From a virus, in IMG/VR virus record IMGVR_UViG_3300042549_004527, positions 1 through 43,959 of that record: a stretch of DNA of 43,959 nucleotides; one strand, 5' to 3'. Within the stretch, counting starts at the first letter, position 1. The number at the start of each line of letters is the position of its first letter. Below, in pieces: positions 1 to 31,069 of this stretch. The notes beneath the pieces are model-generated. The model saw nothing but the letters and a program-made list of their open reading frames with translations, searched no databases and had not been told where the DNA came from. The translations under genes were made by a program, and so were the position numbers.

Positions 1-1
1 A

Positions 2-2984: not shown

Positions 2985-2990
2985 ATCAGA

Positions 2991-2998
2991 TATTTATA
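2991..2998 (-). promoter_or_regulatory. T4-type late promoter (leaderless)
   Basis: A perfect TATAAATA on the minus strand, with 6 nt to ATG 2984. It abuts the plus-strand box at 3000-3007, making a divergent late-promoter pair inside 27 bp. Confidence 0.75.
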
Positions 2999-2999
2999 C

Positions 3000-3007
3000 G
3001 GTAAATA
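3000..3007 (+). promoter_or_regulatory. Probable T4-type late promoter (leaderless)
   Basis: GGTAAATA lies with only 4 nt to ATG 3012. It matches TAAATA exactly but not the first two bases of the consensus. No room exists for a Shine-Dalgarno sequence. Confidence 0.5.
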
Positions 3008-3011
3008 CATC

Positions 3012-3581
3012 ATGCTACTGAACAACTATAAAGGCAAACTGCTAATTGCACAGCCCAAATGCGATAGTAATTTCTTCAAAGAAAGTGTGGTGTTAATAAC
3101 TAGACACAACAGCTACGGCGCCTGGGGAATTATTATCAATAAGCCCGTGCCCGATCCCAGCTGCGATCTAGTAGATATATTTGAGCATATCGGGATGGAT
3201 AATGCAGTGGGCGTAAATGCTCCGTTGTACGTCGGTGGTCCTATAGAACGAAATCGAGTATGTCTAGTACATTCAAATGATTGGTCATCTAGCAGTACTT
3301 TGGAAATATCCCCGGAGTTGTCAGTTACCACTGATATAAGCGTACTGGCAGCAATATCACAAGGAATCGGGCCAATGTATTATCGCACCTGTTGTGGAGT
3401 TAGTAGTTGGGGACCAAATCAACTTGAAGGCGAGATGAAGGGGCAAGCCCCGTGGACTCCTAAGCATCGATGGTTAGAAATCCAGGGCACTGAAAAAAAT
3501 GTATTTGAGACAGAACCAACACTTCAATGGAACAGCTTGCTAACGCAGGCAGTTGAATTAGAAGTTAAAGAGTGGTTTTAA
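3012..3581 (+). CDS. AlgH/UPF0301 family protein
   Basis: The 189-aa sequence follows the bacterial AlgH (DUF179) family from end to end: YKGKLLIAQP near the N-terminus, then FFKESVVLI and GAWGIIINKP, the YVGGPIERNRVCLVHS block, and a C-terminal SSWGPNQLEGEM box ending in APW. The length matches bacterial members (about 185-190 aa). The biochemical function of AlgH is unsettled in bacteria. A phage-borne copy could have been acquired from a host. The 3' end overlaps the gp41 gene by 4 bases, tail to tail. Confidence 0.8.
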   Translation: MLLNNYKGKLLIAQPKCDSNFFKESVVLITRHNSYGAWGIIINKPVPDPSCDLVDIFEHIGMDNAVGVNAPLYVGGPIERNRVCLVHSNDWSSSSTLEISPELSVTTDISVLAAISQGIGPMYYRTCCGVSSWGPNQLEGEMKGQAPWTPKHRWLEIQGTEKNVFETEPTLQWNSLLTQAVELEVKEWF

Positions 3582-5053
3582 TCTTTTTCGCTATTCAAAT
3601 TAGCCAGCATTGCTCGAATCTTTGCTCCACCTAGTTCTGCCTTAACTTTCGGCGCACCGGCTCCCTTAGTTGGGTCCACTTCAAAAATTTCTCCAGTTTC
3701 CGGATCGGTAGTAGTGCTTACTGTGCTGGTCCTTTTTAGGTTTGCAATCAAATTGCTGCCAGCAGTAGGTCGTCCACCGCCCTGACTTAGACTACGGTTG
3801 TCTTCCTCTTCTCCTAGATCTAGAATACGCAGGGTTTCTACATTGAACTCTAGATCAACCTTTTGCCCAACTCCTGATGACGAGCGTGTCTTCATAAACT
3901 GGATTTGATAGCGTCCACGTTCCTTCATAGCCCTAGAAGTAAAGATACCAATTACATTATCTGCCGTCATAATCTTACTCAAACCACCTGAGATATGACT
4001 GTGATCAAACTCAATTTCTTCAACAGCACTACGGTTCAACTGTGACGCTGTAACTGTAATACATTGTGTTTCCATAGCCAAATTTCGAATCTCTTCAGAT
4101 ACGTATTTGTCTTTAACAAACAGATCGCTAGGACTTACCTTCACACTTAAAGGCATCATTAAATCGAGGTAATCTATTAAGATTACATCTGGTTTCACGC
4201 CTTTTTTGACCTGATATTCCTTCAAATAGGCTCGAATATCGTTACAATTTTTACCTGAGGGCATATACTTGACTTGCATACTTCCCGCATTTCTAGCGGT
4301 CATTTTAACCTTCAATTCCACATCATCTAAGTTCTTAAAGATCTCTCTAGTACCAATACCAGTCATCATAGAATCCAGTCGCATAGCAACCAATCCTTCA
4401 CTAAGTTCAAATGTAAGATACAATACATTCAATCCGGCCAGTGCCCAGTTTACACCTAAGTTGGCTAAGAACAAACTCTTGCCGCCACCTGAACCGGCAC
4501 AGAAAATATTCAATTCACCACGGTTAAAACCACCATACAATTTCTTATCAATACTAGGCCATCCGGTACTAACTTGTCCATTACCATCTTTTAATTTTGA
4601 CAGTCGTGCTCTAGGATCTTCAAAATAATCTGTACCCATGTCCTTGTTCAAGCTGATCTGAATAGCGTCCTTAATCAGTTTCTCAACTGGACCATAATCT
4701 CCAGCTTCTAGTAAATCACTAGATTCAATAATAGCTCTCTCTAATCCTTTGTGACGACTAAAGTTTTCGAACTCATTCATTAACCACTCGTAGTTTTCCT
4801 TGGGCAATACTGCTGGAGCAAATTGACTTCGGGTAGAAGCATTAACAATATTTGCTTCTGGCATTACTTTGTATTCATCTACATATTTGGTAATAAATGT
4901 TGCGGCATCTTGTAATCTCTGATCAAAGTTAAGCGGATCAAAAATGTTCTGGCAGCGTACAAATGTTTCTGCATCACTAAGAAACATTTCTATGTATAAC
5001 TTCTGTACTTCATAGTCATAATTAGGTTTTAGGGTTTTATCTTTTTTATTCAT
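3578..5053 (-). CDS. 41: Replicative DNA helicase (T4 gp41, DnaB family)
   Basis: This 491-aa hexameric helicase unwinds the lagging-strand template and works with primase. The RecA-like core has Walker A GSGGGKS at 187-193 and a Walker B/DnaB-type segment ILIDYLDLM near 290-298; SQLNRSAVEE further on is the DnaB H4-like region. The N-terminal 140 residues are the helical collar domain. Length is close to T4 gp41 (475 aa). Its start overlaps the end of the primase gene by 8 bases, coupling the two primosome subunits. The C-terminal 80 residues are low-complexity, possibly the gp61 or gp59 interaction tail. Confidence 0.93.
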   Translation of the reverse strand: MNKKDKTLKPNYDYEVQKLYIEMFLSDAETFVRCQNIFDPLNFDQRLQDAATFITKYVDEYKVMPEANIVNASTRSQFAPAVLPKENYEWLMNEFENFSRHKGLERAIIESSDLLEAGDYGPVEKLIKDAIQISLNKDMGTDYFEDPRARLSKLKDGNGQVSTGWPSIDKKLYGGFNRGELNIFCAGSGGGKSLFLANLGVNWALAGLNVLYLTFELSEGLVAMRLDSMMTGIGTREIFKNLDDVELKVKMTARNAGSMQVKYMPSGKNCNDIRAYLKEYQVKKGVKPDVILIDYLDLMMPLSVKVSPSDLFVKDKYVSEEIRNLAMETQCITVTASQLNRSAVEEIEFDHSHISGGLSKIMTADNVIGIFTSRAMKERGRYQIQFMKTRSSSGVGQKVDLEFNVETLRILDLGEEEDNRSLSQGGGRPTAGSNLIANLKRTSTVSTTTDPETGEIFEVDPTKGAGAPKVKAELGGAKIRAMLANLNSEKD

Positions 5054-6038
5054 TGATGCTTTCTAGTTTTTTCTTCAGTAAATTAATTTTTATCTCTCCG
5101 TGAATACGGTAGTGTATAATTGTGGTTAATACATATAGCCGGCCATATCTTTTCACAGCGTCAGCAACATCTTTAATATCATCTGCCCAAGGTGGCAAAC
5201 TAACACTCCAATTGTTTGCTATTGCTGCCTTGAGCAGTACTGCTCCTGGCTTATCTTTATCAGGAACAATGATAACTTCCTTACCTAATACATTCAGTCT
5301 AGTGCATTGTGTCTGATTAGGTTCATTGTGCATGAATGCAACTCCATCAATTGCAATTGCGTCAAATTGGCCTTCAACTCCGATAACAAATTCTCGATTG
5401 TCAGTCTGACGATCTATGTTAAAAACATATCCAGGCTGTGCATCTGTTAGATACTTTGGCTTGCCGTCTTTAATTTTTCTACCTGTGTATCCTACAATTT
5501 TCCCTTCATTGTAGAATGGAATTATAACTCTATCACGAAATCCAGGAGTTGCACTCCAATGCCAATCATACCACTCATAATCCATTCCGCGGTCTAGCAA
5601 ATAGTTAATTACTGCTACTAAGTCAGGATCTTGACATCCTTCATTGACCCAAGCATTTATGCTTTTACATTCATCGGGTAATGGTTTTTCTACTAGATCA
5701 AGAATGATAGGTTTCTCGACCTTGGGCATATCTTCTTTATTCTTTAGGGCTTCGAGCCCTAATTTTTGTATCTCTATCTCCGGTAAACCTAGCCAGGATA
5801 GTATTGATTTCGTGTTCTTACTTAATAGCTTACCTGGTGACCATCCTGCTTTGAAATTACAGTTAAAGCAATGATACTGAAATCCATCATTGTTAAACAA
5901 CATGCCACCACGCTGGCGCTTGTCTTGCTTTTCTCCGTTATGGATACAACAAGGTGCGTTGAAACTTATCCACCCGCTGGGAGTAGCTTTTCGTTTCGGA
6001 GGTAAGATTGTTTGTACTGCTGCCTGTATCAGGTTCAT
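5046..6038 (-). CDS. 61: DNA primase (T4 gp61)
   Basis: The 330-aa DnaG-like phage primase makes RNA primers for Okazaki fragments. An N-terminal zinc module is visible (C30/C31, H33, then C57-x2-C60). The TOPRIM catalytic core has the conserved Glu in IGVEGQFDAIAI (E222) and the acidic pair in VPDKDKPG (D260, D262). Length matches T4 gp61 (342 aa). It lies directly upstream of gp41 and overlaps it. The next gene upstream is a late structural gene 10 bp away, so in the early phase this operon must be read from farther upstream or from an unrecognised promoter. Confidence 0.9.
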   Translation of the reverse strand: MNLIQAAVQTILPPKRKATPSGWISFNAPCCIHNGEKQDKRQRGGMLFNNDGFQYHCFNCNFKAGWSPGKLLSKNTKSILSWLGLPEIEIQKLGLEALKNKEDMPKVEKPIILDLVEKPLPDECKSINAWVNEGCQDPDLVAVINYLLDRGMDYEWYDWHWSATPGFRDRVIIPFYNEGKIVGYTGRKIKDGKPKYLTDAQPGYVFNIDRQTDNREFVIGVEGQFDAIAIDGVAFMHNEPNQTQCTRLNVLGKEVIIVPDKDKPGAVLLKAAIANNWSVSLPPWADDIKDVADAVKRYGRLYVLTTIIHYRIHGEIKINLLKKKLESINE

Positions 6039-6047
6039 GCAGTTAGT

Positions 6048-6899
6048 TTAACTTCTTAGCAATACTTTGTCAAAGTTTCCGGCGTAAGTAGTGTCATCGT
6101 TAAATCCAGTTTGTGGATTCTTAGCAGGAATATATCTAACTCTTAAGTGAGTGAAAATACCATTTGCACTCATATAATCTACACCAGTGAATCCGGTGTA
6201 TGTTCTACTTTGAAGAATCGCATAGTGGCCAAACGTAGTAGGACTATTATCCAATGTGCCTTCTAAGTATACTATTCCTCTAAAATTTCTCATGTAGAAT
6301 GCTGTAGACAATGTACCGTTTCTATTTTGAGAATCTGGATATATTCGAACATTACCAGTATTGTATTCCCACCATAATTTTCCAGCATCACTATTAAACA
6401 CTCGCTGGAAGGTCACAACTTCGATACTAGGTTTTGCCGCTGGGAAAACTTCTTCTTTTAATTCTAAGATACCCGGAACATCGTAATAAGTATTTGAATA
6501 CGTAGGATTCAAAGTACCATCTTCTTCTAACATAACAACAGAAAAATTGTAGGCTTTAGATTCCATATCTAATGTATCGCTGGCCGTAAAAATAACTTGA
6601 CCGAGGCCTTTAGATATGTAGGTGGTAGCAGAAGAGCCAGTATCGATAATATCAATATTCTTGCTTAAAATTAAACTTCTGTTTTCGCTAGTTTCATAAA
6701 CGTTAAGTACAAATGTAGAAGAGCTAACATCTAATCTTTTCTGATCCGAATTTTTGAATTGCAGTTGTACAGTGTTCTTAACACCTTTTTGAATTTTAAG
6801 AGGTCGCTGATACATAATTTGGTTTATTTCCTTATTATTGTCCAGATCTAGTGTTACATCGAACAAATTGGTATATAAATAGACTGGTAATTTCTGCAT
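6048..6899 (-). CDS. Putative virion/baseplate protein, BppU-like N-terminus
   Basis: The 283-aa protein is beta-rich. The first ~130 residues (LKIQKGVKNTVQLQFKNSDQ, then FVLNVYE, TASDTLDMESKAYNFSVVM) read like the BppU/upper-baseplate Ig-like domain common in phage adhesion proteins. The second half (YMRNFRGIVYLEGTLDN) has further beta repeats and no catalytic motif. A late promoter ends 5 nt before the ATG, so it is probably a leaderless late structural gene placed between the primase gene and a plus-strand gene. The family call is by pattern only. Confidence 0.55.
   Translation of the reverse strand: MQKLPVYLYTNLFDVTLDLDNNKEINQIMYQRPLKIQKGVKNTVQLQFKNSDQKRLDVSSSTFVLNVYETSENRSLILSKNIDIIDTGSSATTYISKGLGQVIFTASDTLDMESKAYNFSVVMLEEDGTLNPTYSNTYYDVPGILELKEEVFPAAKPSIEVVTFQRVFNSDAGKLWWEYNTGNVRIYPDSQNRNGTLSTAFYMRNFRGIVYLEGTLDNSPTTFGHYAILQSRTYTGFTGVDYMSANGIFTHLRVRYIPAKNPQTGFNDDTTYAGNFDKVLLRS
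6874..6881 (+). promoter_or_regulatory. T4-type late promoter inside the divergent gene
   Basis: A perfect plus-strand TATAAATA lies within the first codons of the minus-strand gene. Predicted start near 6887 gives a leader of about 34 nt before ATG 6921, much like the arrangement at 430-476. Confidence 0.6.
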
Positions 6900-6904
6900 A
6901 TAGG

Positions 6905-6912
6905 TATTTATT
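6905..6912 (-). promoter_or_regulatory. T4-type late promoter (leaderless)
   Basis: AATAAATA on the minus strand with exactly 5 nt (CCTAT) to ATG 6899. Confidence 0.7.
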
Positions 6913-6920
6913 AGAAATCA

Positions 6921-7304
6921 ATGACAACAAAAGAGAGCTTCCAAGAAAACTATCCTTTTATGACCTGCATCAAGTGTAATGATACAGAATATTTAGGTAT
7001 TATTATAAACTTCGATCAGCAAGTAACGAGTCTGTACGACTTTGCTGTGATTAACAATTCAGGTTACCAGAACTTATTTCTAGAATTAGGTGATGTTTGG
7101 TGGTGGGAATCAAATCGTAAAATACCCATTAACATTTTTCTTAAACAAGACATGTCTTCGTTTAAGCCTTATATTAAAACATTTAATACTAAGGATGTAG
7201 AAGTTGTATTCGGACCAACTGTCAATTTAGGCGATATCGCAGAAAAGCGAGTCAAACGTAAATCAATTCAACTGGTCCGAAATCCTAAGAAGGTTAGACC
7301 TTAA
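6921..7304 (+). CDS. Conserved hypothetical phage protein, 127 aa
   Basis: I do not recognise a named family. The protein has an N-terminal IKCNDTEYLGIIINFD segment, an aromatic patch LGDVWWWESNRKIPI near residue 60, and a basic tail (KRVKRKSIQLVRNPKKVRP) suited to nucleic-acid or acidic-surface binding. It is a lone plus-strand gene whose end overlaps the methyltransferase gene by 4 bases, tail to tail. The perfect late box upstream suggests late expression. Confidence 0.6.
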   Translation: MTTKESFQENYPFMTCIKCNDTEYLGIIINFDQQVTSLYDFAVINNSGYQNLFLELGDVWWWESNRKIPINIFLKQDMSSFKPYIKTFNTKDVEVVFGPTVNLGDIAEKRVKRKSIQLVRNPKKVRP

Positions 7305-7873
7305 AATACTCGTTTCAAGATAGTTAAACCACAGCAGTTTATATATCTATCTTTGAGAATCCATTGTGGATTCTCAGCTAAGAATTCTGTTACCGCAGGC
7401 CATAACCCTTTGCCTTCTGGGCCGGGTTTAACATAACAATCAAAATGTTCGCCTGTGCGTCGATCACCAAATACTGTAGTATCATGCATGATAATATATT
7501 TTCTAGCATAGTCGGCATGCAACTTTAGTTCTTGCTTTAGTTGTTCATAAATGTGCCATGTATCAATAAACAATAAATCTGTAGGTTCAATAACGGTACT
7601 AGGATTGCCAGTATCACCTATCCTGAAATGATAATCAACACCGTATGTCGGTGCTAGTGCTTTTGCTCTATCAACAGGACACTGTTCGGCATCATAAGAA
7701 ATTAATTTCTTAGGTCTTGCCAATAAGAATGCCCAGGTAGTTACTACACCCCGTACTCCCATCTCAGTAATGTGATCGCATTCCAATGCATGTTTGTAGA
7801 TAGTTTCCATGTGTTCATGGATATCGCCTGGGGTGTTTTTATTATAATTGTAATAATCGAAAATTGAGTCCAT
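7301..7873 (-). CDS. Class I SAM-dependent methyltransferase-like protein
   Basis: The 190-aa protein resembles Methyltransf_24/CmcI-like O-methyltransferases: glycine loop EMGVRGVVTTWAFL (residues 37-50), acidic residue at the end of strand 2 in LISYDAEQCP, then DLLFIDTWHIYEQLKQEL and KYIIMHDTTVFG, where D and H sit at the usual metal/catalytic region. The first glycine loop is less canonical than usual. The substrate is unknown; sugars are common substrates in this group. AGGAG lies 6 bases before the ATG. It is the last gene of the minus-strand run from UvsW, 9 bases after the Pol III alpha-like gene. Confidence 0.7.
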   Translation of the reverse strand: MDSIFDYYNYNKNTPGDIHEHMETIYKHALECDHITEMGVRGVVTTWAFLLARPKKLISYDAEQCPVDRAKALAPTYGVDYHFRIGDTGNPSTVIEPTDLLFIDTWHIYEQLKQELKLHADYARKYIIMHDTTVFGDRRTGEHFDCYVKPGPEGKGLWPAVTEFLAENPQWILKDRYINCCGLTILKRVF

Positions 7874-7882
7874 GTTTTTCTC

Positions 7883-8446
7883 CTAAGTAATGTTCTCGCA
7901 AATTAAATTCATTTGCACCACGATTGCTTGAGCATAAGCAACTGCATGTGCCTTCTTAAAGAAGTATTCGTCGCTTGCAGGTTTTTGCCAAACCTCGCTG
8001 TTTACAGTATCCCAATCTTGTCCGATTAGATAACGCTTTGCAGGTCGAATCATAGCTAATACCGCAGCCAGTTGTTCCACACTTGTCGGCTGCATCTGTC
8101 TTAAAATAGATCCGTGCCCGTTAACGTGAAACAACAAATTAACAAAATCGTCCTGAGTAAGTAGTTCCCATATTGGACTGGTATCCATTAATTTATTAAG
8201 GTGTCCCTCGTCTCTGATGCCATTGTATATGCCTACGTTTAAGAAATCTATCTTAAAGTAGCCGCGGGTTTCTGCTTCTTCGTATGCAATAGAAGATAGT
8301 TTAGTTAAAGGATTGTACGGGATAGAATGACAATATACGCCAGTATTGTGCTTTTTATAAATGCCATTTTCTATCCTGCTAGCAGGTATGTGTTTGATAA
8401 TAGATAAGATTTTATCTCTATCTGCAAAATCGATATCAATATCCAT
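7883..8446 (-). CDS. Minimal DNA polymerase III alpha (C-family) palm-like protein
   Basis: The 187-aa protein aligns by eye with the catalytic palm of bacterial DnaE/PolC but is a fraction of their length. MDIDIDF (residues 1-7) matches PDIDxDF, with D4 and D6 at the two metal-ligand positions. HNTGVYCHSIPYNPLTKL matches the KHAGGVVIAP-type segment. YFKIDFLNVG (63-72) matches KFDFLGL, which carries the third catalytic Asp (D67). AAVLAMIRPA and FFKKAHAVAYAQA (162-174) match the ALxRPG and KSHSAAYA motifs. PHP, most of fingers, beta-binding and OB domains are absent. It starts in a TAATG overlap with the zinc-finger gene. Activity is uncertain; it may be an enzyme, accessory factor or relic, though intact motifs argue against decay. 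Confidence 0.6.
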   Translation of the reverse strand: MDIDIDFADRDKILSIIKHIPASRIENGIYKKHNTGVYCHSIPYNPLTKLSSIAYEEAETRGYFKIDFLNVGIYNGIRDEGHLNKLMDTSPIWELLTQDDFVNLLFHVNGHGSILRQMQPTSVEQLAAVLAMIRPAKRYLIGQDWDTVNSEVWQKPASDEYFFKKAHAVAYAQAIVVQMNLICENIT

Positions 8447-9141
8447 TATTCAATTCCTGCTTCTTTACAAATTTCTTTAACTAATGCTACGTCTGCCGGT
8501 ACTGCCTTGAATTTCTTAAGCCAGAAAGGCAAATCAAAAGCCGGAGCTATCATGTCAAGCTGATCATTGTTAAATTTATTTAAGAGCTCTTTCCCACCTC
8601 GGCAATTTAATAGTAGCCACGGACTTATTTTTCCGTTACGTATGTCATGTACTGCTCTGTTAAGATTGACGTAATTAAAATAATGATTAAATTCCGCTTG
8701 ACTAATATCGCCCCATTCCATCATTGTTTGAATACTACGTTGCACCGCAGACTCAACTGGTTCTGCTTTAAGCATATCAAATAGGTATGAATCATACAGT
8801 TCATCTCTACACCAGTGGTCAAGTTTAACTCCGCTCTTAATAACGTAATCCATAAACTTTTCTGGATAAAGCGGTAACACATTGTTTATGAAACTGCCAA
8901 ATTTAACAAATGCATTGTAATACGGACTCTTACAAAAATCTTCATAAGTCTTATCTTTCTTAGCAGCCTGCGTCATTCTAAAAAATTTGTTAAACGCCAT
9001 GAAACCTGCCTGCACCCGCTTCTCATCCTTCTGCATAGCCCTACGTTTGTTTTCGCACATGTGAGCATACAGAGTTTTTTCTTTCATAAAACTCTTGCTA
9101 CAATGTACACAATTAAAAGGTTGATCTGCCAACGCTATCAC
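8446..9141 (-). CDS. Conserved phage protein with N-terminal zinc finger, 231 aa
   Basis: An N-terminal C2HC/C2H2-like finger (C11-x2-C14, H27, C29) is followed by a basic helix and a ~190-residue helical region with many aromatics and no enzymatic motif. The family is found in T4-like marine phages, as far as I recall, without known function. Its neighbours are the Pol III alpha-like gene (TAATG overlap at its 3' end) and the 150-aa gene (4-base overlap at its 5' end). The finger and the context suggest a DNA- or RNA-binding role in replication. Confidence 0.65.
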   Translation of the reverse strand: MIALADQPFNCVHCSKSFMKEKTLYAHMCENKRRAMQKDEKRVQAGFMAFNKFFRMTQAAKKDKTYEDFCKSPYYNAFVKFGSFINNVLPLYPEKFMDYVIKSGVKLDHWCRDELYDSYLFDMLKAEPVESAVQRSIQTMMEWGDISQAEFNHYFNYVNLNRAVHDIRNGKISPWLLLNCRGGKELLNKFNNDQLDMIAPAFDLPFWLKKFKAVPADVALVKEICKEAGIE

Positions 9142-9590
9142 TCGTATTCTTTCCGTTGTTTTTTGTCAAATCCCATCTTATCAAACAACTCTTCTTTATC
9201 TTTCTTATCCATCAATGATGCCATTAGACGAACTTCATCCATTTTCATTGCAGGATACAATTCGCACAAAAGTTTTTCAATTTTAACTGCTTTTGTTTTT
9301 TTACCTGCTGCAAGATAAGGATGATATGCCGACATACCAACACCGACTGCCGCAAATAATTTCCACAATAGAGCCTTATGATTCTTACTCAATGTCCAGT
9401 GATTTTTGTTAACCAGTTCATTGGTCATTTCAAGGAAATGTTCTTGAACGTCTCGGTCACCTTGGCAACTTGCAGTATATCGCAATAAAATAAATGGAGC
9501 AAATGATTTCTTTTCTTCAGCAGTTAGGTTATCATAAAAATCATATTCTTTATGATCAACTGCCTTTAGTTCACGTTTAATATCGAGCAT
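9138..9590 (-). CDS. Conserved phage protein, possibly gp62-like clamp-loader subunit
   Basis: The 150-aa helical protein contains FILLRYTASC, then NELVNKNHWTLSKNHKALLW, HPYLAAGKKTKAVKIEKLL and a C-terminal DEVRLMASLMDKKDKEELFD with a closing MGF. The order (R near an early aromatic helix, N..N, later lysine-rich helix, final short helix) recalls the small clamp-loader subunit gp62 of T4-like phages, but I see no decisive motif and gp44 is not in this window. It lies 1 base from the upstream 102-aa gene and overlaps the zinc-finger gene. Confidence 0.55.
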   Translation of the reverse strand: MLDIKRELKAVDHKEYDFYDNLTAEEKKSFAPFILLRYTASCQGDRDVQEHFLEMTNELVNKNHWTLSKNHKALLWKLFAAVGVGMSAYHPYLAAGKKTKAVKIEKLLCELYPAMKMDEVRLMASLMDKKDKEELFDKMGFDKKQRKEYE

Positions 9591-9591
9591 G

Positions 9592-9900
9592 TTACCAATC
9601 TAAAGTATTTGAAGAACCCGGGTTGTCCGAGCCTTCTTTACTAATGTAATATAATATTTTAACACGATCTAATGCCTTTTGTAAAGTGGGATTTGTCCGG
9701 GCAGCACGATGAATCTCACCCCATAGCTTTGAATCCATAATGTGTTCGTGTAATGGTCTGCCGTCGGCAGTGCGAGGGTCTATTTTATTTTCATAATGAT
9801 ATCCCACAACTGATCGTTCAGTCTCGCCTTCTCGACGAGCGTATACGGTATCGTCTACACGTTCGTATATCAGTTTAACATTTGGAGTAAGTGATCCCAT
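9592..9900 (-). CDS. Conserved T4-like phage protein, 102 aa
   Basis: The start MGSLTPNVKLIYERVDDTVY and the following YARREGE resemble a small family that I recall from T4-like cyanophages and pelagiphages beside UvsW. The C-terminal half is helical (LWGEIHRAARTNPTLQKALD) and the tail is Ser/Gly-rich. The function is unknown. Spacing to both neighbours is 1 base, so it belongs to the UvsW operon. Confidence 0.65.
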   Translation of the reverse strand: MGSLTPNVKLIYERVDDTVYARREGETERSVVGYHYENKIDPRTADGRPLHEHIMDSKLWGEIHRAARTNPTLQKALDRVKILYYISKEGSDNPGSSNTLDW

Positions 9901-9901
9901 A

Positions 9902-10405
9902 TTACCAGCATTTTGTGTAGTCTACTAACTCACATTGTCTACTAACTTCTTTTACAAAATATGCACACAACGGATTGTCGCCGGCGTGTAATGGTGTGCA
10001 TAATAACTGGCCTGGTTTCATTTTAGGAAAATACCATTTTACATCTTGGTAGACATTTACAATATCAATTTCATGAAACTCTGGTCTAAAACTTCCTAAA
10101 GGATTAAAACAGTATGCCTTAAAACCTCTATCATTTAAGCTAGTAATAGGAAGAATCTCCATATCAGGACCTTCTGGATCTCCAACAATACAACACCAGT
10201 CTAACGGCATTGTGATTTCATGGTCGCCTATTTTTAACACTACTGCCGGGCCTGTGAAACTTTCTAAAAATATAAGTGGAATATAAAAATAATCTGGATT
10301 ATTATTATCACTATTATCTAAAACAGCGAATCTAATGTCCTCTTCAATCTCATCTGGAAGATCGTTGAGGAACATTGTTTTATTGTCTAACGTTAAAATT
10401 TGCAT
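9902..10405 (-). CDS. Conserved T4-like phage protein, 167 aa
   Basis: Notable segments are FLNDLPDEIEEDIRFAVLDN, MPLDWCCIVGD, ITSLNDRGFKAYCFNPL, DVKWYFPKMKPGQLL and a terminal YFVKEVSRQCELVDYTKCW. I recall the same motif order in proteins beside UvsW in marine T4-like phages, always without assigned function. No catalytic motif is evident. It starts on the last base of the UvsW gene (TAATG-type overlap), implying coupled translation. Confidence 0.65.
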   Translation of the reverse strand: MQILTLDNKTMFLNDLPDEIEEDIRFAVLDNSDNNNPDYFYIPLIFLESFTGPAVVLKIGDHEITMPLDWCCIVGDPEGPDMEILPITSLNDRGFKAYCFNPLGSFRPEFHEIDIVNVYQDVKWYFPKMKPGQLLCTPLHAGDNPLCAYFVKEVSRQCELVDYTKCW

Positions 10406-11868
10406 TATTGATATTTTACCTTTTGAATCTCGAACGGATACTTTGCGTCCTTGTAGAATTTCTTACGCTCTGTAAGATGTCGCTTTGCATATTTGGTCGC
10501 TCCGGTAATGTCCCAGATTTGTACAAAGTCTTTATCGTCAGCTTTTCTAATGCCGCGGCCGATACTTTGTATAACTCTAACAAAGCTCTTTCCGGGTTCC
10601 AGAAGAACCAGATTAAAAATACGAGGAATATTAATACCCACAGCGGCCACACCGTAAGTCGCCACAATAATCTTATTAGTACTAGTTTTAATTTCGTCAT
10701 ATTCTTCTTTTCTATCTTTTGTTTTAACTTTGCCAGAGATAAACACACTGTCGGGTAAATTTTCCACAAGGAATTCACCCGACTCAATTCTGTCTACTAA
10801 CACTAGTGTATTACCAGACTCGGCTATCCCGTCAACCAAATTGGCAATATATTTCATACGCTTTTCATCTGTAACCAAATATTTTAATTCTTCGGGATAT
10901 CCACTAAACTCTTTCCATTCAGCAGTTTGAATAACCTGCACATGACACGATGACAACACTCCTGCTTCTTGCAATTCGTGAGCCTTAACCTGATGAACAA
11001 CTTCTCCCAAACTTGCACGAATGCTTTGAAATTCGTGGTCTGCTTTAGGAACTGTTCCAGTTAATCCCCAGCGAATAGGTGCCTTGGCAAGATTCTTTGT
11101 TAACAAGTTTTTTAATACATCGGCTTTGGCCATGTGTACTTCATCAACCATAACGCATTGTACATTATCTAACAATTCTGCAAGACGTAACACCTTCTCT
11201 TCGCCGTCAAATTCTTTAGAACCTTTGTCTAAAATATTCAAACTTTGCCAAGTGCAAATAGTGTGTGTTTTATCAAGATTCTTTCGGTCACCGTAGTAAA
11301 CGCCCACGTCTAATCCACAGTTAACAAAGTCTTCTTCAGTTTGTTCAACTAGTGACTTGTTAGGAACAATGGTTATTGTTCGACCGTATTTTTCACAGAT
11401 TTTCGCCAAAGTTGCGGTGGTAATTGTCTTGCCAAACCCTGTGGCAATTTCTTGAATGCATTGCGGATTCTCAAGAAATTTATTGATAACTTCGACTTGG
11501 TCGCCGCGTAATCTAATCTTATCGCCGGCAAACCGATGACCTACAGGCCACGTTTGATCACCCCAAAAATCCTCTAAAATTTGGTCAAATTCTAGGTTAG
11601 GACTAGTACGCAAATCTTCTACATCAATGTTATAATTTCGTTTTTCAAGCTCTTCTAGTACCTGTCCTAACATGCTAAGATACGTTGTTCCGCCAAGACC
11701 GAAAAAACTGATAGCACCGTCCCATCGACCTAATTTATAGCTAGGCCTATAGCGAGCAGTAGGGTCTTCATACTTAAATTTCTTAACTAACTGTTTTCGC
11801 GTGTCCAGGTCAAGACCTTCTATCTTGATGTTAACTTCATCACGAATAATAATTTTACAGCTCGACAA
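10405..11868 (-). CDS. uvsW: UvsW helicase (fork regression/recombination)
   Basis: The 487-aa SF2 helicase has Walker A ATGFGKT (142-148), DEVH box (242-245), motif III LTGTVP (269-274) and motif VI QSIGRGIRK (434-442). The N-terminal ~110 residues contain GRWDGAISFF, the UvsW DNA-binding domain. In T4, UvsW regresses forks, branch-migrates Holliday junctions and unwinds R-loops to end origin-dependent replication. The start is TTG at 11866-11868, with AAGGA about 8 bases upstream, inside the end of the HARP-like gene (14-base overlap); the downstream in-frame ATGs are too internal. Length is close to T4 (503 aa). Confidence 0.9.
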   Translation of the reverse strand: MSSCKIIIRDEVNIKIEGLDLDTRKQLVKKFKYEDPTARYRPSYKLGRWDGAISFFGLGGTTYLSMLGQVLEELEKRNYNIDVEDLRTSPNLEFDQILEDFWGDQTWPVGHRFAGDKIRLRGDQVEVINKFLENPQCIQEIATGFGKTITTATLAKICEKYGRTITIVPNKSLVEQTEEDFVNCGLDVGVYYGDRKNLDKTHTICTWQSLNILDKGSKEFDGEEKVLRLAELLDNVQCVMVDEVHMAKADVLKNLLTKNLAKAPIRWGLTGTVPKADHEFQSIRASLGEVVHQVKAHELQEAGVLSSCHVQVIQTAEWKEFSGYPEELKYLVTDEKRMKYIANLVDGIAESGNTLVLVDRIESGEFLVENLPDSVFISGKVKTKDRKEEYDEIKTSTNKIIVATYGVAAVGINIPRIFNLVLLEPGKSFVRVIQSIGRGIRKADDKDFVQIWDITGATKYAKRHLTERKKFYKDAKYPFEIQKVKYQ

Positions 11869-13060
11869 AATCTGATTCCTTTAATGAGTAGTTAACGACA
11901 AAATTGTGATTTTTTAAGTAATTTGACAACGTATAGTGTACACCCGATATGCCTAAATTCAAAATTGATGAAAAATTTAACTTTGATTCGAGCAGCGGTT
12001 TAGGTATCTTTCCGCTGATAAAAACAATCTTAGTATCGGCATTAACAGGGTTATTCAGTTTTGTAGCCTTGACAAAATTGTTGCAATTTTTGCCAGTTTC
12101 TCCGTCTAAACGAAACAAAACAGTCATTTCTTCAGTTGAAATATTCATTTTTTGAATCATTTTTGTGCATATTTCTAAGTGGCGTAGCTCACTACCACCC
12201 GGTACTACAACCAGGCAAGGTAACGAATGTTTTAAGATAGTAATAATGTCAGAAAAAGTGGTTTTTTCCTTATCTATTGGAAATGTAGTGCTACTAGCGG
12301 TTGTTAAAAACTTATATAGCATTGGGTCTAATTCTAACTGATCCAATGCAATATCAATATCTTCAGCCCACGTAGTAATTCCATATTTTCTTGCCTCTAC
12401 CAATGTATCAACAAGATCAAAACCAGTCGGTTGTGGAATATTTGGTGTTGTATTTTTGAAAACAAACGTGTTGTCTTCAAACACTACCATGGGTATATAT
12501 TTTTCTAAGTTATTCTTCACATTGTCGACTTGAGTGGCAATGTCTTGGAATAGTTCATCTACAATGAACGAAGAATTTTGTAAATTATTTGAGATCCAAT
12601 CCACATTTTCTTCCCTCAAGTCAAAATCCCATGATCGACTATCTGGATTCCAATTAACATTATTTCCAGTATTAGATACAATCTTTTTATAGGTCTTAAT
12701 AGATGCAATACATTCTGCGTCAAATGGAAATATTACCGAAATAACTCGTTTAGTAGTATCACTGATTTTACGAACTACAATACTCCTATTAGAACTGATC
12801 ACTCTAGTGGGTAATCTAAATTGTGGATTGTTAACGAAGGGTGTTATGTCAGTTTGTAACGCTAAACTTAAAACGCGAAGATATTTTTTAACCAATCGAA
12901 TTGCTAGTGTACTTTGTTTTTCTGTAAAGCCATTGCCCATAATTACTTGCGTAGATAGGCTTTCGATTACTGTTCGATCAGCATGAAACAATTCAATCAG
13001 GTCAGCAAACATGTACTGGCCATCACTGTTTAATCTATTAATCAAGTCTTCTATATACAT
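11855..13060 (-). CDS. Protein with HARP-like segment, partner of UvsW
   Basis: The 401-aa protein has a helical N-terminus (1-75), then a segment (about 104-160) resembling the HARP module of SMARCAL1-type annealing helicases: VISVIFPFDAECIASIK, then VNWNPDSRSWDFDL and ENVDWI. The C-terminal third (about 270-390) reads like a degenerate RecA-like domain (LPCLVVVPGGSELRHLE, then TKIVFISGKIPKPLLES) without Walker A or DExH residues. The gene overlaps uvsW by 14 bases. My inference is that it loads or regulates UvsW at forks. A sigma70-like promoter sits directly upstream, so the mRNA would be nearly leaderless. Confidence 0.6.
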   Translation of the reverse strand: MYIEDLINRLNSDGQYMFADLIELFHADRTVIESLSTQVIMGNGFTEKQSTLAIRLVKKYLRVLSLALQTDITPFVNNPQFRLPTRVISSNRSIVVRKISDTTKRVISVIFPFDAECIASIKTYKKIVSNTGNNVNWNPDSRSWDFDLREENVDWISNNLQNSSFIVDELFQDIATQVDNVKNNLEKYIPMVVFEDNTFVFKNTTPNIPQPTGFDLVDTLVEARKYGITTWAEDIDIALDQLELDPMLYKFLTTASSTTFPIDKEKTTFSDIITILKHSLPCLVVVPGGSELRHLEICTKMIQKMNISTEEMTVLFRLDGETGKNCNNFVKATKLNNPVNADTKIVFISGKIPKPLLESKLNFSSILNLGISGVHYTLSNYLKNHNFVVNYSLKESDFVEL

Positions 13061-13067
13061 ACAAATT

Positions 13068-13096
13068 ATTATACACTAAAATAAAAAAGGATTCAA
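13068..13096 (-). promoter_or_regulatory. Sigma70-like promoter for the HARP-like/uvsW operon
   Basis: On the minus strand TTGAAT (13091-13096) is 17 bases from a perfect TATAAT (13068-13073). Transcription is predicted to start near 13061, right at ATG 13060. The -35 region lies inside the terminator hairpin of the upstream uvsY gene. Confidence 0.65.
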
Positions 13097-13111
13097 CCTC
13101 GAATCCTTTTT
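13084..13111 (-). terminator. Intrinsic terminator after uvsY
   Basis: AAAAAGGATTC (13084-13094) pairs perfectly with GAATCCTTTTT (13101-13111) around AACCTC. On the minus strand the 3' arm ends in T-runs. It overlaps the uvsY stop codon, ending the gp32-uvsX-uvsY transcript before the uvsW operon. The symmetric A/T flanks could work in both directions. Confidence 0.75.
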
Positions 13112-13571
13112 ATAAACTTGCATCTTCTAGGCCTGCTGTCCGGAGTTTTATAATATTACTCAATTGCCATTGTTTAATATCTAATCCCTTTATAATGCCT
13201 AACCATTGATTTCTTAAAAGTGCAAATTCATTGATAATTTTTTCCATATCAACTACATCGGCTTCACCGTCAACATATTTTTCGCAATCACGACTGCTTA
13301 ATACACGTTGATAGTTTTCTAGGAATTTTTTGAAGGCTTTTGAACGGACACGCCTTAATTCAATATTGAGGTATTCTAAAATAGCCTCAATTTCTTGTAA
13401 CTGATTAAATCTTTGTTCGACTAGACCTGGCAAAGCTGCACTAGATTTTTCTATGTTTCCATATACTTTAACTTCGCTCTTTGCTAGGACTAATTCGTTG
13501 TAATAATAATCAATACACGCAGGTAGATGAACAATGTCGTGACTTACCTTGGCATACCATTGAGACATCAA
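13110..13571 (-). CDS. uvsY: UvsY recombination mediator
   Basis: The 153-aa helical protein has the UvsY pattern seen in T4-like phages: RVLSSRDCEKYVDGEADVV in the middle and LLRNQWLGIIKGLDIKQWQL near the C-terminus, followed by LRTAGLEDASL. UvsY binds ssDNA, gp32 and UvsX and loads UvsX filaments. Length fits (T4: 137 aa). Order gp32-uvsX-81 aa-uvsY with short overlaps groups the whole presynaptic filament machinery in one transcript, ended by the terminator on its stop codon. Similarity is at motif level only. Confidence 0.75.
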   Translation of the reverse strand: MMSQWYAKVSHDIVHLPACIDYYYNELVLAKSEVKVYGNIEKSSAALPGLVEQRFNQLQEIEAILEYLNIELRRVRSKAFKKFLENYQRVLSSRDCEKYVDGEADVVDMEKIINEFALLRNQWLGIIKGLDIKQWQLSNIIKLRTAGLEDASL

Positions 13572-13813
13572 TAATCCTCATCTTCGATGCCACTTTCATC
13601 ATCCTCATCTTCGTATTCAGATTCCTCATCTACTACTGCTTTAATAGCAAGATCAAGATGAGGATCATATCCCATCACTGCTTCAAGTGCGGCAACTTCC
13701 ATGTCTTTACCTAATAGGTAATCAACATACTGATGTGCGGCAACTTCACGATTTTTCTCCGGAATGTACTCTCGAAAAGTATCCCAAACTTCTACAATTA
13801 AACTCTCGTCCAT
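13568..13813 (-). CDS. Small acidic conserved phage protein, 81 aa
   Basis: The protein has a helical start (VEVWDTFREYIPEKNREVAA), a short middle and a very acidic tail (EESEYEDEDDESGIEDEDY). Similar small acidic proteins occur between UvsX and UvsY in T4-like marine phages, as I recall. The acid tail could mimic DNA or bind a recombination protein, but this is speculation. It overlaps uvsY by 4 bases and uvsX by 1 base. Confidence 0.65.
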   Translation of the reverse strand: MDESLIVEVWDTFREYIPEKNREVAAHQYVDYLLGKDMEVAALEAVMGYDPHLDLAIKAVVDEESEYEDEDDESGIEDEDY

Positions 13814-14877: not shown

Positions 14878-14889
14878 ATCTACCTCCAA

Positions 14890-15885: not shown

Positions 15886-15950
15886 AATGTTTTTCCTTGA
15901 TAAATGTTTTATTATGCCTCTTTCTTAAAGCCTACTGACTAAAAGAAAAA

Positions 15951-15994: not shown

Positions 15995-16029
15995 CCTAAA
16001 TGGCTAGCAAAATAGATTTATTTTGCCAA

Positions 16030-18501: not shown

Positions 18502-18506
18502 AGCTG

Positions 18507-18514
18507 TATTTATT
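18507..18514 (-). promoter_or_regulatory. T4-type late promoter (leaderless)
   Basis: AATAAATA on the minus strand, then 5 nt (CAGCT) and ATG 18501. The box overlaps the stop codon of gp17. Confidence 0.7.
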
Positions 18515-20099: not shown

Positions 20100-20104
20100 A
20101 TTAT

Positions 20105-20112
20105 TATTTACT
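20105..20112 (-). promoter_or_regulatory. T4-type late promoter (leaderless) for gp17
   Basis: AGTAAATA on the minus strand, then 5 nt (ATAAT) and ATG 20099. It begins one base after the T-run of the upstream terminator. Confidence 0.65.
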
Positions 20113-20141
20113 GAAAAAAATAGGCTCCGAAGAGCCTATTT
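20113..20141 (-). terminator. Strong intrinsic terminator with TTCG tetraloop
   Basis: On the minus strand AAATAGGCTC, loop TTCG, GAGCCTATTT: a perfect 10-bp stem with a C(UUCG)G loop and a run of Ts. It ends the transcript from the 364-aa gene and the structured region. Confidence 0.9.
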
Positions 20142-21938: not shown

Positions 21939-21954
21939 TGTGGTTTCCTATGCA

Positions 21955-22431
21955 TTATTTATTCATATTTTTTAGTTTTTCGAGAATTGAGTTGCGATCA
22001 GTAATAACATATCCCTCGCCCTCAATCTCGTCACCCTTTTCACCGTGCTTCCTGTCAATAGCAAGTTTTTTAAGTTGTAGATCAACCATTTTTAACTTTT
22101 TATCTATTTTGTTAGTTTTTGCAGTAATTGCTGCATTTAACATTTGTCCAGCTACTTCGAACATCCTAGTACTGTAGCGGGCCTCTACATTCATGCCTAG
22201 ATCCATTAAATCGTCATACGCTTTTTCAGCCTTGGCTGCTAAGAAATCTAATTCAGCATCACTAATATCCCCAAGTCCTTTGACCCTAGGTAGTGCTGCG
22301 GAAATTTTGTCAAATTCTTCTAATTTATTCTGCAAATCAATAGTGGGCACAATTACTTCAGCAGGTGCGGGAGTATCGATTATTTCATCACCGGGTGATA
22401 TGTTTAACAATTCTTCGAGTTTCTTAGTCAT
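21955..22431 (-). CDS. 16: Probable small terminase subunit (gp16-like)
   Basis: The 158-aa protein has an acidic N-terminus (LLNISPGDEIIDTPAPAE, like T4 gp16 LLDISDL) and then a central antiparallel-helix region (AEKAYDDLMDLGMNVEARYS, EVAGQMLNAAITAKTNKIDK, LKMVDLQLKKLAIDRK), the organisation of T4 gp16. gp16 recognises DNA and stimulates gp17. Length matches T4 (164 aa). The position between gp4 and gp17, separated from gp17 by two likely head-protein genes, fits. The assignment rests on architecture and context, not a strong motif. Confidence 0.6.
   Translation of the reverse strand: MTKKLEELLNISPGDEIIDTPAPAEVIVPTIDLQNKLEEFDKISAALPRVKGLGDISDAELDFLAAKAEKAYDDLMDLGMNVEARYSTRMFEVAGQMLNAAITAKTNKIDKKLKMVDLQLKKLAIDRKHGEKGDEIEGEGYVITDRNSILEKLKNMNK
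21956..21963 (-). promoter_or_regulatory. T4-type late promoter with short leader
   Basis: AATAAATA on the minus strand overlaps the stop of the gp16-like gene. Predicted start near 21950 leaves about 12 nt, including AGGAAA, before ATG 21938. Confidence 0.65.
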
Positions 22432-22436
22432 AACCG

Positions 22437-22444
22437 TACTTATC
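22437..22444 (-). promoter_or_regulatory. Possible degenerate late promoter
   Basis: GATAAGTA on the minus strand sits exactly 5 nt (CGGTT) before ATG 22431, the same spacing as other late genes, but has one mismatch in the TAAATA core. No Shine-Dalgarno is present. Confidence 0.35.
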
Positions 22445-22883: not shown

Positions 22884-23263
22884 GCTAGGATGTTACGTTG
22901 TATTTCGTCAGCAGCACTAGGTGCTATATAAATTCCTAAACTACTAGTTTTGAATCTATTATAGTTTAAGATTTCGGCCACAAGCCCGCTAATTTCTAAA
23001 TTAGTTAATCCCGATAAACTGTCTATAATTTGCTGAGGATTAAAATTGTCTTTCTTTGCCTGTGTTAAAATTACTAGTGCAATAGACTCTGCGCTAGATG
23101 TTGAGAACCCTCTTTTTTCAAAAAAAGATTTAATTGATATTGTAAAATTATTATCTATATCAACTGGTGCATTAAAATATTGATCAAAATATTTTTTTGT
23201 AGGATCTGCACTATCTTGAGTTGTTTGCTGTATTGGCAGATTTGAATATATTTTATTTTCCAT
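22880..23263 (-). CDS. Conserved T4-like phage protein, 127 aa (probable virion/assembly)
   Basis: I do not recognise a named family. Residues 1-40 are polar; IKSFFEKRGFSTSSAESIAL and LVILTQAKKDNFNPQQIIDS form a helical core resembling a small Q/N-rich assembly factor; the C-terminus is RFKTSSLGIYIAPSAADEIQ. Its position between a tail-tube-like gene (1-base overlap) and gp4 suggests a structural or chaperone role. Confidence 0.55.
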   Translation of the reverse strand: MENKIYSNLPIQQTTQDSADPTKKYFDQYFNAPVDIDNNFTISIKSFFEKRGFSTSSAESIALVILTQAKKDNFNPQQIIDSLSGLTNLEISGLVAEILNYNRFKTSSLGIYIAPSAADEIQRNILA

Positions 23264-24441
23264 TAATTACTACTCCCACCTACATTTCTCGGGGTTGCTA
23301 GAGACACGCTATCAGATCCAATTTTTCTAAAAAAAGTGTTAACTGGATTTACTTGCTTAGTAACTATTTGGCCTGGAGTCGATCTATCCAAGTCAATTTG
23401 ATCAATTGTAGAACTTGCAGGGTTAGTAGCACCTCTTATAAGACTACTTGTTACTAAACTATATGCTTCTTGTTTAATTCCGGCCGCTGTTAGGCTTTTT
23501 GCATTTTTTGCAAGATTTTTTGTACTTATGGCAACATTTAACCAGTCACCAACACTTAACGAGCCTTCTTTATTAAACACTCCTAATATATCAGCTGATC
23601 CATTGAGCAGGCCACTAAGTCCTTTGCCGCCGCCGCCAAGTACAGACAGTGGACTAGGAGCATTATCGTAATGTATTGCATTGAAGCCTGGTTCTGTTTT
23701 AGTTACTGAAGAATTTCGTGTGTCGTAGTAAACTGCCTCGTATGCTACTGTCATTTTAGCATCTAATAGTCGGTTTCCACTAGTTTGATCTAGTTGAGAG
23801 TGGGCCCATTCTGTAATGATAGGATTTATTAACGTGACTGAACTATATTTTCGTCTGTTTAATAAAAATATTTTTATGTAACTAAAAAATGGTTCAGTCT
23901 GACCGTTGTTTAATCCGTATGCATATGCTCGATTATCATATTCAGATAATTCCTGATATGCTTCAGGAATTACTGACATTGTTTTTGACAATGAATTAAA
24001 TCCGGTGTACCTAGAATCAGCATAATAGTATTGATAATAGTTTTTCCACAAATCAGTAATAATGTTATCCATGTCATCATGGAATGTAATACTAATGGGA
24101 TTGTAGGTTATCTTACTTTGAACTACAGTCTTTTTGTTGTATTGATTTAGAGTCTCTGTTGCAACAGAAAATCTAGGAAGGTCTGCAGATTTTGCTAGTA
24201 GGCCTAATTTTCCCCTTGATCGTTTATACCAAGTGTCGTCGAGAGCTGCAAAAATTGTTTTATCGTGTAGTTTGGGATTTAATCCAATTTCGATAAAATA
24301 GGTCCAGCCCGCTTTAGGAGCCATGCCGTAGTAATTGTCTTGATACAATCTGGCGGCATGTTTATAATCTCTAAGATAACCGTCGTTACCAAAAAGGCCT
24401 CCGGCAAAGCCGCTAAGGAATTGTGTAAAAGCATTTGACAT
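23263..24441 (-). CDS. Tail-tube/baseplate-associated structural protein, 392 aa
   Basis: The core (AGWTYFIEIGLNPKLHDKTI, KSADLPRFSVATETLNQYNK, NPISITFHDDMDNIITDLWK) has the order seen in gp19-type tube-fold proteins and in a conserved marine T4-like protein that may correspond to gp48/gp54 (tube cap or initiator). The N-terminus has a short Gly/Phe-rich stretch and the C-terminal 150 residues are Ser/Gly-rich. It starts 5 nt after a late box, so a leaderless late mRNA is predicted. I cannot separate a gp48 from a gp54 assignment by reading alone. Confidence 0.6.
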   Translation of the reverse strand: MSNAFTQFLSGFAGGLFGNDGYLRDYKHAARLYQDNYYGMAPKAGWTYFIEIGLNPKLHDKTIFAALDDTWYKRSRGKLGLLAKSADLPRFSVATETLNQYNKKTVVQSKITYNPISITFHDDMDNIITDLWKNYYQYYYADSRYTGFNSLSKTMSVIPEAYQELSEYDNRAYAYGLNNGQTEPFFSYIKIFLLNRRKYSSVTLINPIITEWAHSQLDQTSGNRLLDAKMTVAYEAVYYDTRNSSVTKTEPGFNAIHYDNAPSPLSVLGGGGKGLSGLLNGSADILGVFNKEGSLSVGDWLNVAISTKNLAKNAKSLTAAGIKQEAYSLVTSSLIRGATNPASSTIDQIDLDRSTPGQIVTKQVNPVNTFFRKIGSDSVSLATPRNVGGSSN

Positions 24442-24446
24442 AACAA

Positions 24447-24454
24447 TATTTATG
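24447..24454 (-). promoter_or_regulatory. T4-type late promoter (leaderless)
   Basis: CATAAATA on the minus strand, then exactly 5 nt (TTGTT) and ATG 24441. Confidence 0.7.
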
Positions 24455-25819: not shown

Positions 25820-25840
25820 CTAGATGCTCCTTGTTTACTA

Positions 25841-25848
25841 TATTTAAC
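25841..25848 (-). promoter_or_regulatory. T4-type late promoter with leader for tail tube
   Basis: GTTAAATA on the minus strand in the gp18-gp19 gap. Predicted start near 25835 leaves a ~16-nt leader carrying AAGGAG. Confidence 0.6.
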
Positions 25849-29180: not shown

Positions 29181-29213
29181 TTGTAAATCTCCTCGATGGA
29201 TTATCGTTTGTAG

Positions 29214-29221
29214 TATTTAGT
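29214..29221 (-). promoter_or_regulatory. T4-type late promoter with leader for tail sheath
   Basis: ACTAAATA on the minus strand. Predicted start near 29208 gives a leader of about 28 nt carrying GAGGAG before ATG 29180. Confidence 0.6.
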
Positions 29222-29250: not shown

Positions 29251-29253
29251 CAT

Positions 29254-30225: not shown

Positions 30226-30245
30226 AGCATCTCCTGGGATACTAT

Positions 30246-30274
30246 AATTTACTATAATTCTATATAATTGTCAA
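30246..30274 (-). promoter_or_regulatory. Sigma70-like promoter for gp1
   Basis: On the minus strand a perfect TTGACA (30269-30274) is 17 bases from TAAATT (30246-30251), a weak -10. Predicted start is near 30239, giving a ~14-nt leader with AGGAG. Confidence 0.45.
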
Positions 30275-30281
30275 TAGTTTT

Positions 30282-31040
30282 TTAGCCAACTACAAAAGTA
30301 AGTGGTTTACCACCGTCTTTGTAATTAATTAGATCGAGTTCTAATTGTTCAATCTCAGCCTTGCCTTCAGCTTTTAGTGCAGTACCGTTAAGGGTTGTTC
30401 CACCTTGCGGACTAGCAATTGTTTGAAACTTTTCACGAGCATCACCTAACATGAGTTTACATGTTGCTAAGGCATAATCTTTTAACCAGATGCCAACGTA
30501 TGGGTCATTAAACAATGCAAAATCTGGTCTATGATTATACAACCACAGTAAAATTTCTTCTTGACCCCTCGGTCTTTGTAAGATAGTGATCTTCTTATTT
30601 GTAGCATTCCATATGAAGTCAATTTCACTACCAAACATTTTGCCTACTAGCTTTTGATAACTTGCAAATGCATAGTATGTTGCCAAGCCGCCCATATTAC
30701 TGGCACTTAACAAATAAGTGTTTGTATAAGCTAAGTTAAACGGTTCAAAAATTGTGCCGCCGCTGCCGCCACCTGTACGTGAGCCAATACTTCTACGAAA
30801 AATTTGTCGAACTTCCATTACTTCTGATGGAAGGATATATTCGTTAACATCTTGTTCTAATATTAAAAATCCATAACTTTCTTCTGTGCTAGCTTGACTT
30901 CTTTGACGAAATTTTGCCAATGCACGATCTATAGCAGTATTATAGTGCTTAGGATCTAGTTCTATATCAACCATGCCGTCACCTAGCATGTTTTTAATAT
31001 AATTAACTACTTCTTGTCTGGTGTTTTCTAGTTCGCTCAT
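30282..31040 (-). CDS. 13: Neck protein (T4 gp13)
   Basis: gp13 joins gp14 and the head vertex to form the neck to which the tail attaches. The 252-aa sequence has the helical pattern of T4-like gp13: IELDPKHYNTAIDRALAKFR, EYILPSEVMEVRQIFRRSIG, then YYAFASYQKLVGKMFGSEID and KITILQRPRG. Length is shorter than T4 gp13 (309), typical of marine relatives. It lies head-to-head with gp14 and its ATG is 5 nt from a late box, so a leaderless mRNA is predicted. Confidence 0.85.
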   Translation of the reverse strand: MSELENTRQEVVNYIKNMLGDGMVDIELDPKHYNTAIDRALAKFRQRSQASTEESYGFLILEQDVNEYILPSEVMEVRQIFRRSIGSRTGGGSGGTIFEPFNLAYTNTYLLSASNMGGLATYYAFASYQKLVGKMFGSEIDFIWNATNKKITILQRPRGQEEILLWLYNHRPDFALFNDPYVGIWLKDYALATCKLMLGDAREKFQTIASPQGGTTLNGTALKAEGKAEIEQLELDLINYKDGGKPLTFVVG

Positions 31041-31045
31041 ACGAA

Positions 31046-31053
31046 TATTTAGC
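31046..31053 (-). promoter_or_regulatory. T4-type late promoter (leaderless) for gp13
   Basis: GCTAAATA on the minus strand, then exactly 5 nt (TTCGT) and ATG 31040. It abuts the plus-strand late box for gp14. Confidence 0.65.
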
Positions 31054-31061
31054 TATAAATA
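31054..31061 (+). promoter_or_regulatory. T4-type late promoter for gp14
   Basis: A perfect TATAAATA with 8 nt to ATG 31070, directly adjacent to the minus-strand box for gp13. A leader of about 3 nt is predicted. Confidence 0.8.
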
Positions 31062-31069
31062 CTGTCACT

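Follow-up and report, generated by a model that had tools for sequence, protein, structure and literature searches.

In the 43,959-base virus record IMGVR_UViG_3300042549_004527, the whole of which is called the window here, a set of late genes starts with an ATG that lies only a few nucleotides (nt), most often 5 nt, downstream of a T4-like late promoter box. The best explanation, to which a probability of roughly 0.88 is assigned, is that gp55-type late promoters are fused to start codons, giving predicted leaderless messenger RNAs (mRNAs). This promoter-ATG-fused class would be a variant form of T4-type late promoter. Late transcription in T4 is the textbook system, and its late mRNAs carry leaders and Shine-Dalgarno (SD) sites.

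The window is a phage fragment from a distant T4 relative and encodes a DnaB-type helicase, a primase, UvsX, UvsY and a gp32-like single-stranded DNA-binding protein, together with TerL, tail sheath, tail tube and head-tail adaptor genes. Its best cultured TerL match (~53% identical) is in PA5oct-type jumbo phages and lacks the leaderless-type class.

Spacing between late box and ATG

The NNTAAATA box is present upstream of late structural and packaging genes in the window. The original prediction had placed its TAAATA core 5 nt before the ATGs at 6899, 18501, 20099, 24441 and 31040 (all minus strand), 6 nt before that at 2984 (minus), 4 nt before that at 3012 (plus) and 8 nt before that at 31070 (plus), and every one of these coordinates is correct. 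Equally accurate were a degenerate box at 22431 (minus), which reads TAAGTA at 5 nt, is kept in orthologs and has its own 5-nt peak in the relatives described below, and three contrasting leadered genes, namely those for the tail sheath (29180, minus; 33 nt), the tail tube (25819, minus; 21 nt) and a 204-amino-acid (204-aa) protein (21938, minus; 17 nt). The features are as follows:

2985..2996, minus strand: late box TAAATA (2991-2996) and 6-nt spacer before the ATG of a 228-aa gene (2298-2984), back-to-back with the promoter of the gene starting at 3012 on the plus strand
3002..3011, plus strand: late box TAAATA (3002-3007) and 4-nt spacer before the ATG of an AlgH-like gene (3012-3581; Pfam DUF179)
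6900..6910, minus strand: late box TAAATA (6905-6910) and 5-nt spacer before the ATG of a virion structural protein (6048-6899)
18502..18512, minus strand: late box TAAATA (18507-18512) and 5-nt spacer before the ATG of an 823-aa virion protein (16030-18501)
20100..20141, minus strand: terminator hairpin (20141-20118) with T run, TAAATA (20105-20110) and 5-nt spacer before the TerL ATG (18513-20099)
22432..22442, minus strand: variant box TAAGTA (22437-22442) and 5-nt spacer before the ATG of a 158-aa gene (21955-22431)
24442..24452, minus strand: late box TAAATA (24447-24452) and 5-nt spacer before the ATG of a 392-aa tube-like protein (23263-24441)
31041..31051, minus strand: late box TAAATA (31046-31051) and 5-nt spacer before the ATG of a 252-aa head-tail adaptor Ad2-like gene (30282-31040), back-to-back with the promoter of the gene starting at 31070 on the plus strand
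31056..31069, plus strand: late box TAAATA (31056-31061) and 8-nt spacer before the ATG of a 399-aa virion protein (31070-32269)
21939..21961, minus strand: leadered contrast, box (21956-21961) 17 nt from the ATG of the 204-aa gene
25820..25846, minus strand: leadered contrast, box (25841-25846) with 21 nt containing AAGGAG before the ATG of tail tube gp19
29181..29219, minus strand: leadered contrast, box (29214-29219) with 33 nt containing GAGGAG before the ATG of tail sheath gp18

Five of the 24 TAAATA boxes in the window end exactly 5 nt before an ATG, with ATGs of open reading frames of at least 60 codons taken into account, against 0.08 expected (binomial P ~1e-8). The hexamer itself is scarce (24 observed vs 63 in dinucleotide shuffles), which suggests avoidance of spurious late promoters, although TAAATA contains the stop codon TAA, a confounder that makes shuffles an imperfect control for its overall frequency.

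A peak in related genomes, which the original prediction had proposed as a check, is present and sharp across 112 related IMG/VR loci (1.4 Mb; hereafter the clade). Distances there are bimodal, with 197 sites (114 distinct) at 5 nt, 17, 44 and 46 at 4, 6 and 7 nt, an almost empty interval from 9 to 16 nt, and broad leadered groups at 17-22 and 29-35 nt; a second count of distinct sites gave 140 at 5 nt vs 20, 27, 29 and 8 at 4, 6, 7 and 8 nt. No comparable peak is seen for other A/T hexamers. When all k-mers were scanned by position, TAAATA at 5 nt was the top signal in the pooled clade (150 vs 7.6 expected), ranking first in the related genomes G001 and G006, third in G002 and second in the pelagimyophage HTVC008M, while in T4 SD motifs rank first. 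Orthologous sites are not independent, a difficulty avoided by tests within single genomes, in which the sites belong to different genes: 10 sites vs 0.24 expected in G001 (P 7.5e-14), 8 vs 0.32 in G002 (P 1.5e-9), 8 vs 0.17 in G006 (P 1e-11) and 12 vs 0.64 in HTVC008M, compared with 3 vs 0.77 in T4, none in Syn9, 3 vs 1.6 in PA5oct and 2 vs 1.1 in Atu_ph07. An origin in chance or composition, whereby A/T-rich upstream regions happen to place TAAATA near ATG, could appeal to genomes of only ~40% G+C; it is refuted by the clade distance peak, by the contrast with T4, PA5oct and Atu_ph07 (higher in A+T, without the peak) and by the per-genome tests, with P between 1e-8 and 1e-13 within single genomes, and its probability is negligible. 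The 5-nt spacing between TAAATA and ATG is real.

Start-site signatures and gene-by-gene membership

The absence of SD sites at these starts, as originally claimed, holds in the clade: upstream regions contain a core SD motif in 1% of leaderless-type cases, at the level of shuffles (2%), and in 78% of leadered cases, for which shuffles give 9%. After deduplication, TAAATA sites at 5 nt precede 119 ATG codons, one TTG and no GTG. A pyrimidine (T or C) stands just before the ATG in 98% of these sites vs 37% in the leadered genes of the clade; this is the type of base expected ahead of an initiating purine. If the box is a late promoter from which initiation is scattered, most of the mRNAs would carry a leader of 1-4 nt; spacings of 4, 6, 7 and 8 nt do occur, and sites at 7 nt have an A at position 4 after the box in 93% of cases, a possible alternative start. 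The mode is nevertheless sharp at 5 nt, and the base before the ATG is still T or C at spacings of 6 and 7 nt, which fits a start on the A of ATG, so that scattered initiation is regarded as possible but rather unlikely.

Comparison of orthologs bears on where translation begins. Orthologs of Ad2 differ most from one another within the spacer and hardly at all in the box and the T at -1. Substitutions after the ATG follow codon positions from codon 2 on, and those upstream do not; these ATGs are therefore most likely the true starts. Were the true start codons to lie downstream, behind hidden ribosome-binding sites, the genes would be leadered after all, and no evidence in support of this was found; it is opposed by protein-type constraint in codons 2-6 (third position most variable) in 5/5 genes tested and not in the upstream sequence, by TerL homology to cultured phages that, among the matches listed, mostly begins at query residues 1-11, and by the coincidence of 5-nt starts in HTVC008M with annotated starts of coding sequences. 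Downstream starts are accordingly given very little credence.

The surroundings of the box are those of a promoter. Leaderless-type boxes immediately follow a terminator in 28% of cases and leadered boxes in 5%, and at TerL and many tube-like genes the terminator hairpin and its T run abut the box. Back-to-back promoter pairs, with start codons ~27-30 base pairs (bp) apart, number 12 distinct cases in the clade and one in the pelagimyophage set, and none was found in T4, Syn9, PA5oct or Atu_ph07; the two divergent pairs of the window (2985-3011 and 31041-31069) each hold two complete back-to-back late boxes within 27-29 bp and are conserved in relatives. These arrangements argue against TAAATA being an A/U-rich translation element on longer upstream transcripts rather than a promoter. 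A/U-rich, unstructured start regions can, in general, recruit ribosomes without an SD site, but such an element would leave unexplained the lack of a comparable peak for other A/T hexamers, the recurrence of the same box 17-35 nt before SD-bearing genes, the terminators that immediately precede TerL and a good number of tube-like genes, the gp55 homologue in relatives and, above all, the paired boxes, which are hard to explain except as promoters. It is very improbable, though slightly less so than downstream starts.

Two further ideas were rejected. CA-rich sequence downstream of the start, considered as an aid to translation, is not enriched in the clade relative to leadered genes, and phage-encoded ribosomal protein S21 (PF01165), considered as the cause of the class, is found in HTVC008M, PA5oct and Atu_ph07 and not in the clade, and so does not track it.

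Whether a given gene belongs to the class is conserved among its orthologs. The box lies at 4-8 nt in 43/43 distinct ortholog upstream regions of the 823-aa virion protein, in 40/43 orthologs of TerL, 30/38 of the 392-aa tube-like protein, 12/14 of the Ad2-like gene and 10/11 of the 399-aa virion protein (mostly at 7 nt in this last case), and among the distinct upstream regions listed for the 158-aa gene, TAAGTA lies 4-7 nt from the ATG in 24/25, with TAAATA in the remaining one. By comparison, the leaderless-type arrangement occurs in none of 38 tail tube orthologs and none of 28 tail sheath orthologs, in which the box is found at 15-35 nt in 27 and 23, respectively. For the 204-aa gene the box lies at 5-8 nt in 20 orthologs and at 17-23 nt in another 20; in the latter, leadered group extra sequence stands between box and ATG, often with a GGAAA-type element, and this switching among relatives is a natural experiment on both classes. 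With membership conserved gene by gene and SD content of 1% vs 78%, the existence of two classes within late expression, as proposed, is upheld.

Late promoter machinery and predicted mechanism

A gp55-family late sigma factor is encoded by G001 and G002 (loci L154-L170; phrog_234, E ~3e-26); the window is a fragment that does not include the gp55 region. In T4 the late box begins at -13 (PMC2988020), and an 8-bp box then ends at -6; a 5-nt spacer would therefore put +1 on the A of ATG. In bacteria, a TA-like or -10-type signal ~10-12 bp upstream of the start is a published criterion for leaderless genes (PMC3160421), and initiation by 70S ribosomes on a 5'-terminal AUG is established for leaderless mRNAs (PMC9031893).

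In the mechanism proposed here, late genes would be read from gp55-type late promoters (NNTAAATA), and in a constant group of genes, comprising those for TerL, several virion and adaptor proteins and, in a relative, the baseplate wedge protein gp25, the promoter would be fused to the start codon. With the box ending 4-8 nt, mostly 5 nt, before the ATG, the mRNA would be leaderless or have a leader of a few nt at most, and translation would begin at the 5'-terminal AUG with no SD interaction, whereas the sheath and tube genes would retain leaders of ~10-30 nt with strong SD sites. Fusion of promoter and ATG would also permit terminator-promoter-ATG junctions and divergent back-to-back promoters within 27-29 bp.

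Several points weigh against this interpretation. The co-activator gp33 (PF16805) was found in T4, Syn9 and HTVC008M and not in the clade, it being a short, divergent protein and the genomes possibly incomplete; likewise, the gp45 clamp family phrog_223 gives no match in the clade though it detects T4, Syn9 and HTVC008M (PF02916, also for gp45, detected T4 alone). These non-detections may reflect divergence, or late transcription in the clade may depend on another clamp or co-activator; T4 late machinery in the clade is supported for the gp55 part only. The position of the transcription start is predicted from T4 geometry combined with sequence signatures, and in some genes the start could lie 1-3 nt to either side. 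Leadered promoters of the clade are purine-rich at several positions after the box, and a single initiating base could not be pinned there. Finally, the box at 22431 and some other 5-nt sites share their TAA with an upstream stop codon; at 22431 the stop is that of the head-closure gene, and the conservation of this box is due in part to that overlap.

Comparison with known systems and significance

T4 resembles the window in its TAAATA core box before structural and packaging genes and in a gp55-family sigma factor, which the window's relatives encode, but differs in having no class with 5 nt between box and ATG and in having the SD as the strongest upstream signal (PMC2988020, PMC7892883). 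A leaderless class is, as first suspected, unusual for T4-type phages, T4 itself being without one. The cyanophages S-PM2 and Syn9 carry a degenerate NATAAATA box upstream of structural genes (PMC2984593), although Syn9 has no 5-nt sites before open reading frames and its boxes lie mostly 20-28 nt from the ATG. Further phages were screened by counting the pattern against a reversed control: the count is raised in Mosig (11 vs 3 in the control), slightly raised in P-HM2 (6 vs 2), near the control in KVP40, S-PM2, P-TIM68 and S-CAM3, and zero in Cr30 and phiM9. Compared with bacterial leaderless mRNAs (actinobacteria, Deinococcus, lambda cI), which likewise have a -10-type element ~10-12 bp upstream, no SD and a preference for AUG (PMC3160421, PMC9031893), the present class differs in using a phage late-sigma promoter and in coexisting with SD-led genes under the same box.

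The closest parallel is HTVC008M, in which 12 sites at 5 nt precede open reading frames, including gp2, gp4, gp25 and gp3, and the capsid, sheath and tube genes are SD-led. Its gp2 and gp4 form a back-to-back pair, a T run resembling a terminator precedes the box and ATG at 75559, and in the annotated stretches examined its 5-nt starts are the annotated coding-sequence starts. Its relatives share the 5-nt peak and the T at -1. HTVC008M differs in belonging to a separate branch with standard gp33, gp45 and gp55 and in its spacer, often GTANT. The pelagimyophages HTVC008M and Mosig share the class with the clade, a lineage of uncultured freshwater phages. A pelagimyophage study reported that late promoters were not predictable by the cyanophage method (PMC7029224). 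No description of the class in HTVC008M or Mosig was found in the open-access literature, and a search of that literature for leaderless late mRNAs in T4-type phages was likewise without a hit.

The genes involved point to a difference in dosage. The leaderless-type class probably has the lower protein output, judging from its members (TerL, head-tail adaptor, gp25) vs sheath and tube, and in HTVC008M the same would follow from gp2, gp4, gp25 and gp3 vs capsid, sheath and tube. A broader proposal, put forward tentatively and at somewhat less than even odds, is that dosage is set by the placement of the late box: fused to the ATG it would give leaderless mRNAs with low output (packaging, adaptor and baseplate proteins), and set back behind an SD leader it would give high output (sheath and tube, and capsid in pelagimyophages). 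Undissociated 70S ribosomes may then translate late mRNAs when host initiation is compromised, and the freshwater clade and the pelagimyophages may have acquired the arrangement independently.

Phages of aquatic bacteria, among them the marine SAR11, appear to make systematic use of a T4-type late promoter to produce leaderless mRNAs. Should this prove correct, these genomes offer a natural comparison, within one genome and under one promoter type, of leaderless and SD-led translation; they also provide a simple rule by which late promoters could be located, and start codons assigned correctly, in metagenomic phages for which prediction had failed (PMC7029224), and HTVC008M or Mosig on Pelagibacter would serve as a cultured test system.

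As to the origin of the window, a near-DNA search of a phage collection with bases 1-20000 returned no relative, and TerL and the AlgH-like protein, used as queries against GTDB genome contigs to identify the host, gave no relatives either. Transfer RNA genes number zero in the window and only one across three large relatives. A short tandem repeat of GAGGTGGTGGAGGCCT occupies positions ~85-150. The 401-aa gene (11855-13060, minus strand) lacks an SD and has a sigma70-like TATAAT 7 nt before its ATG, directly after a terminator hairpin (upstream region 13061-13110); TATAAT is kept 5-7 nt from the ATG in about half of the distinct ortholog upstream regions of this gene, and leaderless starts may thus extend to non-late promoters.

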